From: Terriglobia bacterium
Lineage (GTDB): Bacteria; Acidobacteriota; Terriglobia; Acidiferrales; UBA7541
Assembly: GCA_020072765.1 (NCBI GenBank)
Contig: JAIQGD010000025.1
Location: forward strand, 1 to 41,883
Direction of reading: 5' to 3'
DNA: 41,883 nucleotides
Made by a program: the position numbers and the translations under genes. Position 1 is the stretch's first letter; the number at the start of each line of letters is the position of its first letter. Below the pieces are notes generated by a model, which was given only the letters and a program-made list of their open reading frames with translations, was not told the DNA's origin and ran no database searches. This document shows, one piece after another, positions 3,283 through 9,625 of this stretch.

Positions 3283-5742
3283 TTAGTTGCTCTCGGAGCG
3301 GATCCGCATTCCGTAGAACGAGCGGTAAACGAAGAAGAACGACACGGCAAAGAACACAGCGGCCAGAATGTGCGTCAGGTTGCTGTTCCCCTGCGAGGCG
3401 GTGAGCTGCACGGCCAATTCGACGGCCAGCAGCCCGAACAGCGTGGTGAACTTGATCACCGGGTTCAGCGCCACCGAGGACGTGTCCTTGAACGGATCGC
3501 CGACCGTGTCGCCGACCACCGTGGCGTCGTGCAGGGGCGTGCCTTTCTGCTTGAGCTCCACTTCCACGATTTTCTTCGCGTTGTCCCAGGCAGCGCCGGC
3601 ATTGGCCATGAAGATGGCCTCGTACAGGCCGAAGACGGCAATGGAGATCAGGTAGCCGATGAAGAAGAAGGGCTCGACGAACGCGAACGACAGCGCGGCG
3701 AAGAACACGGCGATGAAAATATTCAGCATGCCGCGCTGCGCGTATTTGGTGCAAATCTCGACGACCTTCTTGCTGTCCGTCACCGACGCTTTGTCCAGGC
3801 CTTCGAGCTTGATGTTGGCCTTGATGAACTCGACGGCGCGGTAGGCCCCGGTGGTGACGGCCTGCGTCGAGGCCCCGGTGAACCAGAAGATCATAGCCCC
3901 GCCGGTGATCAGCCCGAGCACGAACGGAGCGTGCAGCAGCGAAAGCATTTCGACGTTGGTCTTCAGCCCGTTGGTCAGCGCCATGATAATCGAGAAAATC
4001 ATGGTGGTGGCGCCGACGACGGCCGTGCCGATCAGCACCGGCTTGGCCGTGGCTTTGAAGGTGTTGCCCGCGCCGTCGTTGGCTTCCAGCAGGTGCTTGG
4101 CGCGCTCGAAGTTCACATCGATGTTGAAATCCTTCTTGAGTTCCTGGGCGACGTTGGGAACGCTTTCGATCATGGACAATTCGTACACCGATTGCGCGTT
4201 GTCCGTCACCGGCCCGTAGGAATCCACCGCGATGGTCACCGGCCCCATCCCGAGAAATCCAAAGGCCACCAGGCCGAACGCGAATACGGGCGCCGCGATC
4301 ATCAGATGCGCCAGCCCGCCCAGGCTGACCAAATATCCGATCGACATCAGGGCCACCATCGCCAAGCCCAGGTAATACGCGGAGAAATTGCCGGCCACGA
4401 ACCCGGAAAGAATCCCGAGCGACGCGCCGCCTTCCTGCGCCGACCGCAGCACCTCGCGCACGTGCCGCGAATCGACCGACGTGAACACCTTGACCAGCTC
4501 CGGAATCACCGCGCCGGCCAGCGTGCCGCAGGAAATGATGGTTGCCAGCCTCCACCACTGCGTGGTGTCGCCGCCCAGGTCGGGAATGATGTAGCGGGAA
4601 ATCAGGTAGGTCAACCCGATGGAGACAAACGATGTGATCCAGACCAGCGAGGTGAGCGGTGTCTCGAAGTTCATTTCATCGGCGTGCGCGAAGCGCGCGC
4701 GGGCGATGGCGGCGTTGAGGAAGTAGGCCGCCGCGCTGGCCACCAGCATGGCGATGCGCATCACGAAGATCCACACCAGCAATTGCACCTGCACCACCGG
4801 ATTCGGCACGCCCAGCAGAATGAAGGTAATCAGCGCCACGCCCGTCACGCCGTAGGTCTCGAATCCGTCGGCGGTGGGGCCCACCGAGTCGCCCGCGTTG
4901 TCTCCGGTGCAATCGGCGATCACGCCGGGATTGCGCGGATCGTCTTCCTTGATCTTGAAAACGATCTTCATCAGGTCGGAGCCGATATCCGCGATCTTGG
5001 TGAAAATACCGCCGGCGATGCGCAGCGCGGCCGCGCCCAGCGATTCGCCGATGGCAAATCCGATGAAGCACGGCCCGGCGTAATCGCCCGGCACAAACAG
5101 CAGAATGATCAGCATCATCATCAGTTCCACGCTGATCAGCATCATGCCGATGCTCATCCCCGCCTGCAGCGGAATCTGATAGATCGGGTAGGGCTTGCCG
5201 CGCAGCCCCGCGAACGCCGTCCGCGAGTTCGCAAACGTGTTCACGCGGATGCCGAACCACGCCACGCCGTAGCTTCCGAGAATTCCGACCACGCTGAAAA
5301 ACAAGATGAACGCGACCCGGACCGCTTCGTAGTGGAGCAGCACGCCGAAGTAGAGCACGATGATGGCGGCCACGAAGACCCACAGCAGGGCCAGGAACTT
5401 GCCTTGCGTCACCAGGTAGGTCTTGCACGTCTCGTAGATCAGCTCGGAGATCTCGCGCATGGCGCGGTGGACCGGCAGATTCTTCAGCCGGACGTACATC
5501 GTCAGGCCGAAGGCCAGGCCGAAGACGCAGAACGCGATGCCCCACAGCAACAGCCGGTGGCCATCCACACCGAGGAAGTTGACCTGCCGCAGATCGGGCA
5601 GCTTCAGCCCCGCCTCGCCAGCCCCTTCCGCGGCCTGCGCATGCGCGGCCGCCGCGCTCGCCAGCACCAGACCAGTGACTGCCGAACAGATTGTTGCCAG
5701 GCGGCGTAGCAGCCCGGACTTGCGTTCAAGGCACGTGCGCAT
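3283..5742 (-). CDS. hppA: Membrane-bound proton-translocating pyrophosphatase
   Basis: 819 residues, at the upper end of the family, with a signal-like hydrophobic N-terminus followed by about 16 membrane segments. It couples PPi hydrolysis to ion export across the cytoplasmic membrane. Substrate-site motifs are visible: DIGSDLMK near residue 260, EDDPRNPGVIADCTGDNAGD near 275-295 and the late SYGPVTDNA near 510. GNTFKATAKP near 560 has Lys at the position that carries Ala in potassium-dependent enzymes, so this should be a potassium-independent type. The first motif departs from the usual DVGADLVGKVE and appears one residue shorter before EDDPRNP, and DCTGDNAGDSVGP replaces the common DNVGDNVGDCAG, which marks a divergent clade. 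The start at 5742 has GGAGG 7 bases upstream. The gene is monocistronic. Confidence 0.95.
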   Translation of the reverse strand: MRTCLERKSGLLRRLATICSAVTGLVLASAAAAHAQAAEGAGEAGLKLPDLRQVNFLGVDGHRLLLWGIAFCVFGLAFGLTMYVRLKNLPVHRAMREISELIYETCKTYLVTQGKFLALLWVFVAAIIVLYFGVLLHYEAVRVAFILFFSVVGILGSYGVAWFGIRVNTFANSRTAFAGLRGKPYPIYQIPLQAGMSIGMMLISVELMMMLIILLFVPGDYAGPCFIGFAIGESLGAAALRIAGGIFTKIADIGSDLMKIVFKIKEDDPRNPGVIADCTGDNAGDSVGPTADGFETYGVTGVALITFILLGVPNPVVQVQLLVWIFVMRIAMLVASAAAYFLNAAIARARFAHADEMNFETPLTSLVWITSFVSIGLTYLISRYIIPDLGGDTTQWWRLATIISCGTLAGAVIPELVKVFTSVDSRHVREVLRSAQEGGASLGILSGFVAGNFSAYYLGLAMVALMSIGYLVSLGGLAHLMIAAPVFAFGLVAFGFLGMGPVTIAVDSYGPVTDNAQSVYELSMIESVPNVAQELKKDFNIDVNFERAKHLLEANDGAGNTFKATAKPVLIGTAVVGATTMIFSIIMALTNGLKTNVEMLSLLHAPFVLGLITGGAMIFWFTGASTQAVTTGAYRAVEFIKANIKLEGLDKASVTDSKKVVEICTKYAQRGMLNIFIAVFFAALSFAFVEPFFFIGYLISIAVFGLYEAIFMANAGAAWDNAKKIVEVELKQKGTPLHDATVVGDTVGDPFKDTSSVALNPVIKFTTLFGLLAVELAVQLTASQGNSNLTHILAAVFFAVSFFFVYRSFYGMRIRSESN

Positions 5743-6047: not shown

Positions 6048-7811
6048 TCAGTTGCGGCTGGCGGGCTCAGGGTCCGGCAGGCCGCAGGAGCCGTCGGCGC
6101 ATTCGGCGGCCGCGGGCTGGGCACGCCACTTGTCCACCGACGCGCTGGTCGTGTAGGCAAAGTCTGCGGCCTTCCACAGCGGGCTGGTTTCGCCGCCGAC
6201 GACGATGATGTTGATCATCTCGGGCTTGTTGTAGGGCGCGATCAGCGCGTCTTCCGGCAACTTCTTCCACGTGGCATACGGCTCCACGCCCTGCTCCGCC
6301 ATCGGACCCATAAGCATGTCGATCAAATCCGTCTTCCAGAATTGGCCGGAGGGGACCTTCACGTTTTCCGAAAGCCACCGGCAGTAGTCGATCTTGGTCT
6401 GAAAACCTTCGTTCTCCCGGAGGTTTCGGGCGACCAGCGGATCGAGGATCAGTGTCGCGGCGCCATAGAGCGCGGGCAGGGCTTTCAACTGGAGCGCCAT
6501 TTCTTCGCCGTGGGGCCGGTGCGACGCGCCGCCGCCCATGTTCAGCAAGCTCCAGCCGCGGAAAATGCTGATGACGCTTTCCTCGCTCTTAAAACCGTTC
6601 TGGACGTGGAACGGCTCCCAGACGCTGCGCTCCTCGTTTTCGGCGCAGCACATGTTGTTGTAGCCGAAGTTGTTGCCTTGCGAGGTCCACAGCGTTTTCC
6701 GGAGCCGCATGTAGCCCCAGTTGATGCTGAGCAGCGTCCAGGCGCGGCCGATCGCGGCATTGGCCAGGTTTCGCGGGCTGAACGCGCCGATGCCGGAGTT
6801 CATCCCGATTTCGTTGCGGATGGGCCCGTTGACCAGCAGCATGTTGGCAAAGGGCGTCGTCGAAGGCGTAATCGCCGGAAGCGTGGTGGACGCCACCGCC
6901 AGAATCACGGGCAAGTGTTCGGGACGCGCGCCGGCCATCACCGCGACGATGGCGACCATCTCCACGGTGAACTTCACGTGCTGTTTCGCGTCGGAGAGCG
7001 CGACTTCGCCGACCACTTCGTCGCGGGCGTGGCTGGTGCCGGCGAGCATCCGCTCGACGCGCTCCTCGGTGGGCAGCACGATGGGGAGCCCGTCGGTCCA
7101 GCCGCGGTCGTAGAACAGGCGCTGCAGATTATCTTCGGTGTCGGGTTCGAGCAGTGCCTGGCGCGCGCCCGTGTGCGACACGCCCTCGAGTTCGGAGGCG
7201 TCGGCATTGCCGTTCACGGGCTTTGTCAGCGCGTCGATCACTTCCAGGATGACTTGCCGGTTCGTGGCGGGGTCCTTGCCTTCGATGTAGCGCTGCAGCA
7301 CGGCGTCGGACATGCCGACGACGGGATGCGGGGTGTAGGTGAAGGGCAAGCGCACTCCGAAATAGCGCTCGTCATCCTTGACGCGCCCGAGGAACTCGAA
7401 GGTCGAGACGGGAGCCGTGGGGATGCCGTATTCCTGTTCGAGGGTCCGGCTGCAAGCGGCGACCGCCGCGGCGCAGCCCGGTCAACCGGCGACGCCGAGA
7501 ATCGCGGCGTCGCCTTTTTCCTTGATCTCCTTCCAGAGATCGTTCGTGTCGTCGCGGAAGATGAAGCCGGGCTTCCGCCGGCGCACGGTCTTCACGGCGG
7601 GCATGTGCTGGGCGAGCCACTGCTGCATCTGGTCGAGGAACTTGTAGCTGCCGCCGAACCCGGTGTCGACCAGATACACCGTCTTGCCGTTCAGTGTGTC
7701 GAGGCGCGGCGCCAGGTTCGACACGCCGCGGCTTTGCTGCGCGGGGCCCGCATCCGCGGTGACGATTTGCCGGCTTTCGGGATTCAGCGCCGATATGAGT
7801 CCAGTCTTCAT
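6048..7811 (-). CDS. UGSC-family selenoprotein A (in-frame TGA as Sec110)
   Basis: Two open segments (7811-7485 and 7481-6048) lie in the same frame, separated only by TGA at 7482-7484. Read through as selenocysteine this gives 587 residues. The first ~140 residues form the UGSC domain: LDTLNGKTVYLVDTGFGG near 34-51, then the redox site G-V-A-G-U-P-G-C (U110, C113) before EYGIPTAP. The remaining ~450 residues form a second conserved domain with GWTDGLPIVLPTEERV, NNMCCAENEERSVWEPFHV and GGETSPLWKAADF. The chain ends with C571-ADGS-C576-GLP, a possible resolving pair. The start has GAGGAG 7 bases upstream. The paralogue at 7871-9625 has its TGA at the same homologous position, and a bSECIS-like hairpin follows. 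The reaction is unknown; the motif implies thiol/selenol redox or reductase chemistry. Confidence 0.85.
7446..7481 (-). promoter_or_regulatory. Candidate bacterial SECIS element for gene A
   Basis: Directly after the TGA, the mRNA can fold with an outer stem CCGG(G)CUGC/GCAGCCGG and an upper stem GCGGC/GCCGC closing the loop GGUC. The loop begins 17 nucleotides after the UGA and has G in its first two positions, matching the known bSECIS rules (16-37 nt spacing, small loop with an early G). GC-rich coding sequence forms hairpins easily, so this is supportive rather than decisive. Confidence 0.65.
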
Positions 7812-7870
7812 GGAATGGCTCCTCGTGTTTCGAAACGGCCTTCAGGCCCTCTTGCACCCGGCACAGCGTC

Positions 7871-9625
7871 TCATCCCGGCAGGCCGCAGGTTCCTTCGCT
7901 GCAACTCGTGCCGGCGGGCATGCGGAGCGGGCGTTCGTCACGGCGAATCCCGCCCTTGGGCCGCCACTTGTCCACCGAGGCGCTCTGCGTGTACAGAAAG
8001 TCCGTCGTCAGCCACAGCGGATTGGTTTCTCCGCCGACGACCACGATATTCATCTGCTTCGGATCGTTGTAGGGCGTGATGAGTTCATCCTTCGGCAGCT
8101 TGGACCACGTGGCGTAGGGCTCGACCCCTTGCCGGGCCAGGGGCGACATGAAGGCATAGATGACGTCGGCGCCCCAGTATTGGCCCGCGGGTATTTTCAC
8201 GTTTTCGGAGAGCCATCGCGTGACGTCCTGCTTGGTCTTGAAGCCCTGCTCCTTGAGGCCCTTGGCCACCAGCGGGTCCATGATCAGCGTGGCCGCCGAA
8301 CGCAGCGCGGGAAACGCCTTGAGCATGATGGCCGTTTCCTCGGTAGCCGGCCGGAGGCAATTGGCCGCGCCCATGCTGTTGATGACGCTCCATCCCCGGA
8401 ACAGGCTGACCACGCTTTCGTCGCGCCGGAAACCCTTCTCGACGTGGAACGGTTCCCAGACGCTCAGGGCCTCATTTTCGGCGCAGCACATGTTGTTGTA
8501 ATTGAGATTGTTTCCGGTCGATCCCATGAACGTCTCGCCCAGCCGCGCGTCGGCCAAATTGATGGATAGCAGCGTCCAGGCCCGGCCGATGACGGCGTTG
8601 GCGTAATTGAAAGGACTCAGCGCGCCCCCGCCGTAGCTCATCCCGATTTCATCGCGGATGGGCCCGTTGACGATCACCATCCTTCCAAAGGAGGTCGTCG
8701 AACTCGGCAACGAGGGTTCCTGCGTCGAGGCGATGGCCAGAATCACGGGGAAGTGCTCGGGCCGCGCGCCGGCCATCACCGCGTTGATCGCCACCTTCTC
8801 CACGGTGTACTCGAGTTTCTCCTGCAGAGTCGTGACGGTCATCTGGCCGACCACCTCGTCGGCGGGATGGCTGGTTCCCGTGAGCATTTCGGCCACGCGC
8901 GCTTCGGTGGGCAGCACGATGGGCAGCCCGTCGGTCCATCCGTTTTCGAGGAACAGCCGCTGGAGATTTTCCTCCGTGTCTGTTTTCAGGAGTCTCGGCC
9001 GCTCCGCCCTTTGTATCCTGACCGGACGCTTTTCCTGCTCGGTGAGCGGCTGGGTCAGCGCGTCGATCACTTCCTGCATGAGCGGCTTGCCGGTGGACGG
9101 GTCGTTGCCTTCGACGTATTTGCGCAGCGTCGCCCGGGACACTCCCACCACCGGGTAGGGAGGAAAGCTGAAGCGCAGGGTGATTCCGTGATTGCGGGCG
9201 TCGCGCGCGACGTAATCGGCAAAACGAGCCGTCGCCATGGGTGCGGTGGGGATGCCGTAGTCGTTCTCGAGTTTTCTGCAGTGGTCGGCGACACTCGCCG
9301 AGCAGCCGTCTCAACCACCCACGCCGAACAGGACGGCGTGGCCCTTGTCCTTCACTTCGGCCCACAGCTCCGGGTCATCCAGAAACATGTTGCCGCGCTT
9401 GCGGCGGAGCAGCGTCTTCACCGCCGGCAGGTTGCGGGAGAACCAGCCGACGACCTCCTCGAGGAATTCGTATCCACCGCCAAAGCCGACGTCCACTAGA
9501 TAGAGCGTCTTGCCGTTGAGCGTATCGAGCCGCGGCGCCATCGAGGTGGGCGCGAAGACGCCGGTGGGCCGGCCGCGGGGATCCAATACCGTGCAAGACA
9601 AACCCTGCGCTGTGGTCTGCAACAT
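7871..9625 (-). CDS. UGSC-family selenoprotein B (in-frame TGA as Sec105)
   Basis: A close paralogue of the downstream gene, and the first gene of the pair (59-bp gap). The segments 9625-9314 and 9310-7871 share one frame across TGA 9311-9313; readthrough gives 584 residues. The UGSC domain shows APRLDTLNGKTLYLVDVGFG and the redox site G-V-G-G-U-D-G-C (U105, C108) before NDYGIPTAP. The C-terminal domain repeats GWTDGLPIVLPTEARV, NNMCCAENEALSVWEPFHV and GGETNPLWLTTDF, and ends C575-SEGT-C580-GLPG. The start has GGAGG 6 bases upstream. Conservation on both sides of the TGA, at the same place in two divergent copies, argues strongly against a simple nonsense mutation. Conventional gene callers would split it into a 104-residue piece and a ~455-residue piece. 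The selA, selB, selC and selD genes are not in this window. Confidence 0.85.
9276..9305 (-). promoter_or_regulatory. Candidate bacterial SECIS element for gene B
   Basis: After the UGA, UCGGCG-AGUGU-CGCCGA forms a perfect 6-bp stem with a 5-nt loop carrying G at position two. An outer CUGC/GCAG pairing extends it. The loop begins 15 nt (the G 16 nt) after the UGA, at the short edge of the accepted range. The geometry parallels the hairpin in the paralogue although the sequence differs. Confidence 0.6.

Follow-up and report, generated by a model that had tools for sequence, protein, structure and literature searches.

Two adjacent genes on the minus strand of an acidobacterial contig encode, with a probability that we put at about 0.97, full-length selenoproteins, in which SelB and a predicted hairpin just downstream of an in-frame UGA insert selenocysteine (Sec). 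The window, i.e. the whole stretch of 41,883 nucleotides analysed here, is contig C49 of a genome of 3.78 Mb that is 97% complete, and the nearest relatives by sequence are Acidobacteriota MAGs. Both proteins join an N-terminal UGSC domain, which carries the Sec, to a C-terminal domain called Unknown_1 (Table 1).

Table 1. Positions in the window of the two selenoprotein genes and of their features.
Feature	Positions	Strand	Remarks
Selenoprotein gene 1	6048..7811	-	587 aa, Sec110; fusion of UGSC and Unknown_1 domains
Selenoprotein gene 2	7871..9625	-	584 aa, Sec105; UGSC + Unknown_1; upstream partner of gene 1
Gene 1 in-frame TGA, selenocysteine codon	7482..7484	-	GVAG-U-PGC; homologues align with TGA or Cys
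Gene 2 in-frame TGA, selenocysteine codon	9311..9313	-	GVGG-U-DGC; homologues align with TGA or Cys
Gene 1 predicted SECIS hairpin	7448..7481	-	apical loop GGUC
Gene 2 predicted SECIS hairpin	9276..9305	-	GU in apical loop
Gene 1 UGSC domain (PF24696)	7296..7742	-	predicted Rossmann-like; likely related to GrdB/PrdB Sec segment
Gene 2 UGSC domain (PF24696)	9110..9592	-	profile match
Gene 1 C-terminal Unknown_1 domain	6117..7184	-	without Pfam model
Gene 2 C-terminal Unknown_1 domain	7928..9013	-	modelled alone, pLDDT 94.3
Gene 1 C-terminal cysteine pair CADGSC	6084..6101	-	flexibility expected
Gene 2 C-terminal cysteine pair CSEGTC	7886..7903	-	tail pLDDT under 50

Selenocysteine coding

The preliminary description of this DNA held that each gene keeps one reading frame across a single TGA, and this is what we find: the frame is otherwise unbroken in both genes, and YGIPTAP comes after the Sec motif in each. 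The coding parts run from 7811 to 6051 and from 9625 to 7874, each closed by an ordinary TGA stop (6050-6048 and 7873-7871), and the positions 6048 and 9625 given earlier are the outer ends of the pair. The two products are 58% identical and their TGA codons align. Directly downstream of the pair, on the same strand, lies a gene for an H+-translocating pyrophosphatase (3286-5667).

It had been proposed that the genome should be searched for the Sec machinery, whose absence would have spoken against selenoproteins. Profile searches found selA (568 bits), selB (373 bits) and selD (371 bits), and a tRNA-Sec is also present (69 bits), called by ARAGORN as tRNA-SeC(tca) with anticodon TCA. We then compared 122 homologous sites, from 80 related loci, several loci of the genus and 14 genes of the same genome. 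The codon at the Sec site is TGA in 104 of them, Cys in 11 and another sense codon in seven; it is never TAA or TAG. Such a pattern of TGA conservation is far beyond chance. Homologues neither end nor begin at this site, and relative to the closest ones dN/dS stays at about 0.1-0.2 upstream and downstream of the TGA alike, which indicates purifying selection on both sides. Hence, the earlier view that the genes specify products of full length rather than four fragments is borne out.

A hairpin of three or more pairs with GU in the apical loop, whose G stands 17-24 nt from the T of TGA, is predicted in 93 of the 104 TGA genes, as against 0 of the 11 Cys genes (p = 1e-9, Fisher test, a nominal value given that the sequences are related). 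When the same proteins were recoded synonymously, the hairpin appeared in 25% on average and in 34% at most. MFE z-scores computed from synonymous shuffles failed to distinguish the TGA genes from the Cys genes (p = 0.31), and an Rfam scan of the window gave nothing at the gathering score.

Other readings of the TGA codons are very improbable. A standard-code gene caller does give four fragments, as expected if the codons were real stops or damage and the genes fragments or pseudogenes, but TGA sits at one site in more than 100 genes of many phyla with Cys as its alternative, the hairpin goes with TGA, and dN/dS is low after it; site conservation and dN/dS rule out a pseudogene or a frameshift. 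Genome-wide decoding of TGA as another amino acid, e.g. Trp, would also explain the open frame, but it is ruled out by TGA being the terminal stop of both genes, and it also disagrees with the presence of the Sec machinery and with an alternative residue that is mostly Cys and never Trp. The selenoprotein reading is thus as firm as sequence permits.

A fused family and its expansion

Both proteins score above the cut-off of the PF24696 UGSC model (65.4 and 61.5 bits for a cut-off of 25), which covers residues 24-172 in the first and 13-172 in the second. They fall below the 125 bits required by the NCBIfam UGSC equivalog NF041046 (49.7 and 42 bits), and their tetrapeptides are UPGC and UDGC, not U-G-S-C, a motif found in the paralogues L018-L020. 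The UGSC identity proposed earlier therefore holds for the family and not for the equivalog, as judged by these profiles. The window proteins share with PF24696/NF041046 the N-terminal domain and a Sec in the same position followed by xxC. They differ from it by the UPGC/UDGC motif, the fused C-terminal domain, a CxDGxCG tail and the many paralogues per genome. At three loci (L065, L074, L101), homologues of the fusion have Leu, Met, Asn, Ser or Ala in place of Sec, and their function may be altered.

No Pfam model matches the C-terminal ~360 residues. A fusion of UGSC to 'Unknown_1' was reported in 2008 in the selenoproteome of the Global Ocean Sampling (PMC2398784, Fig. S1A), where UGSC ranks as one of the most abundant families of selenoproteins in metagenomes from the ocean. 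Judged by that paper's description, ours is very probably the same fusion, and the architecture was already known. The first proposal for UGSC made there was a likely Trx-like fold, whereas we describe a Rossmann-like model and a relation to GrdB/PrdB, and in addition a multi-copy expansion, gene neighbours, and split and redoxin-fused forms. Our literature searches found no papers for PF24696, nothing on UGSC in work on SAO/mercury selenoproteins, and no function for UGSC proteins.

The genome encodes 14 proteins that match PF24696. All of them are fused to the same C-terminal domain, and the matched frame of each contains a single TGA. The idea that two selenoproteins in tandem suggest a dedicated selenium-dependent redox step was thus an understatement as to number, these being two of 14 paralogues; a redox step is plausible, with a chemistry that we infer. 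Matches to PF24696 occur in 15 of 61 related genomes (144 in total, 136 with one TGA). They reach 5-18 copies in 12 of 20 genomes of the same genus, i.e. this one and eleven more, and are absent from the 17 genomes that represent the family's other genera. Since selA is present in most of the related genomes irrespective of UGSC copies, the use of Sec probably predates the expansion. Most paralogues begin with a twin-arginine-like signal, MK(I)NRRKLLSLLG (judged by eye), which the window pair lacks. One paralogue (L023, 475-2127) is without ~45 residues inside Unknown_1 and may be a decaying or a misassembled copy.

Among the new findings are the set of 14 all-TGA paralogues in one genome and the 5-18 copies in eleven more genomes of the genus. 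A 2026 review names mainly anaerobes as rich in selenoproteins and leaves Acidobacteria unmentioned (PMC13188914). The family is easily missed, because the standard code reads its genes as fragments.

Predicted fold and probable relation to glycine and proline reductases

AlphaFold modelled the full protein with a pLDDT of 92.9 and a pTM of 0.92, and Unknown_1 alone with a pLDDT of 94.3. In the model the Sec domain has an alpha/beta fold of Rossmann-like type, in which Sec opens a helix after a strand. Searches with this domain gave Rossmann-like and cobalamin-binding-like proteins as the best solved structures (Z 8-10), with no thioredoxin-fold entry among the matches listed; the fold matches lend middling support to a Rossmann-like Sec domain. 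The same search with Unknown_1 gave no clear match, the best being weak ones to encapsulin and class I fumarase (Z about 5). We took neither as a relative, and Unknown_1 has no conserved set of cysteines for the Fe-S cluster of a fumarase. Searching solved structures by sequence with profiles of the family gave nothing usable, and the only match to Unknown_1, 8ga6 (E 0.005), failed when the stretch was taken on its own.

GrdB and PrdB belong to the glycine and D-proline reductases, which cleave these amino acids reductively. The UGSC-domain profile aligns with a GrdB-type Sec segment at an hhalign probability of 94.6% (E 7e-8), U column on U and C on C, over 68 columns; all sequences behind the template come from Acidobacteriota relatives. 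Controls gave at most 1.2% with shuffled columns and 0.2% with reversed ones, and Unknown_1 gave 0.3%. The PF07355 profile of GrdB/PrdB matches neither the window proteins nor anything else in the genome, and its model stops just before Sec. For these reasons we speak of homology and not of membership: the Sec domain of UGSC is likely homologous to the Sec segment of GrdB/PrdB, with UxxC likewise placed before a helix, in proteins that differ by their partner domain and by the unmatched PF07355. Other Acidobacteriota (L133-L150) carry short GrdB-like proteins in which the PF07355 match ends immediately ahead of an in-frame TGA, with PxC coming next (e.g. LLVPVUPMCNQTVG). To judge from these sequences, they are probably further selenoproteins hidden from annotation.

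Candidate thiol partners and a possible mechanism

A TrxR-like flavoprotein is encoded near 16 of the 80 relative loci, usually adjacent, alongside Sec and Cys forms alike. These loci are mostly from Proteobacteria, plus one Microbacterium, and there is no such gene beside the window pair. Two alphaproteobacterial MAGs, Roseobacter and Hyphomonas, have in a row selA, selB, a fusion of an AhpC/redoxin domain to Unknown_1, and a stand-alone UGSC selenoprotein (L129:1993-7602 and L130:1979-7611). The subtype with UPGC or UDGC, which includes the window pair, has members with a C-terminal CxDGxCG-like tail, which we saw in no other subtype; the tail-bearing loci are labelled Acidobacteria, Dehalococcoidales, Spirochaetes, Deltaproteobacteria and Firmicutes. 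The flavoprotein neighbours, the redoxin fusion and the cysteine tail are hints of thiol electron donors.

Sec coding, the two-domain architecture and the family-wide conserved U and C positions are established at the level of sequence. The rest we infer: a Sec nucleophile, a UxxC resolving pair, an electron relay through the tail or thioredoxin, and Unknown_1 on the substrate side. The proteins would then be reductases fed by a thiol relay. In the Rossmann-like UGSC domain, Sec would stand at the start of a helix with its partner cysteine three residues on, and Unknown_1 would complete the active site and bind a small organic substrate. The selenolate would attack this substrate and then be set free by pairing with the UxxC cysteine in a Se-S bond, to be reduced by the thiol relay. 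In the subtype of the window, this relay is probably built in as the flexible CxDGxCG tail, whose electrons would come from cytosolic thioredoxin or a cytosolic TrxR-like flavoprotein. The two enzymes of the tandem pair would work in this way on differing ranges of substrates. Because of the relation to GrdB/PrdB, reductases of established chemistry (see also PMC13188914), reductive cleavage next to a carbonyl is an attractive guess by analogy. We give the whole of this mechanism, as distinct from Sec coding, even odds. Three points count against it: the GrdB link comes from a profile-profile comparison of 68 columns with PF07355 itself unmatched, the window pair has no TrxR-like gene beside it, and most paralogues appear to be exported, beyond the direct reach of NADPH-driven thiol relays.

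The main rival is that these are general thiol oxidoreductases or peroxidases whose UxxC reduces disulphides or peroxides. The UxxC motif itself, the TrxR-like neighbours, the redoxin domain fused to Unknown_1 in the two alphaproteobacteria and the Trx-like expectation of PMC2398784 all fit such a role. Yet, the confident model puts the Sec domain among Rossmann-like folds, its profile kinship is with GrdB/PrdB, and a conserved partner domain of 360 residues together with 14 diverged paralogues suits substrate-specific enzymes better than housekeeping redox. We regard this rival as possible, though less probable than the reductase mechanism.

Another reading starts from gene neighbourhoods. 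The genome has about 24 PQQ-dependent dehydrogenase genes (contigs C96, C106, C16, C12 and others), an expansion that goes along with that of UGSC throughout the genus: PQQ matches number 30-51 in members with 5-18 UGSC genes and 0-6 in those with 0-1. Half of the UGSC genes (7/14) have one of the 24 PQQ genes within 5 kb (p = 1e-5 by gene, 0.002 by contig), and PQQ genes also lie near the relatives L052, L067, L070, L075, L104 and L108. Given the Tat-like N termini of most paralogues, one might speculate that the family is part of PQQ-dependent oxidation in the periplasm, with quinoprotein dehydrogenases and cytochromes c, where it would take the aldehyde or ketone product or relay electrons. 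But the window pair has neither a signal peptide nor a PQQ gene nearby, the association is seen almost only within Acidobacteriota, and both expansions may merely mark one subclade of the genus. As a general account of the family this is improbable.

This work offers for UGSC proteins a fold model, a likely kinship with GrdB/PrdB, candidate electron donors, and a genus with up to 18 copies per genome. Tentatively, and at longer odds than the mechanism itself, one might go further: UGSC-Unknown_1 proteins would form a large class, so far unrecognised, of reductive enzymes that depend on selenium, single-chain relatives of glycine and proline reductases with many substrate specificities in soil Acidobacteriota. 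Its exported copies would act after PQQ dehydrogenases, whereas those in the cytosol would use their own C-terminal dithiol tail.
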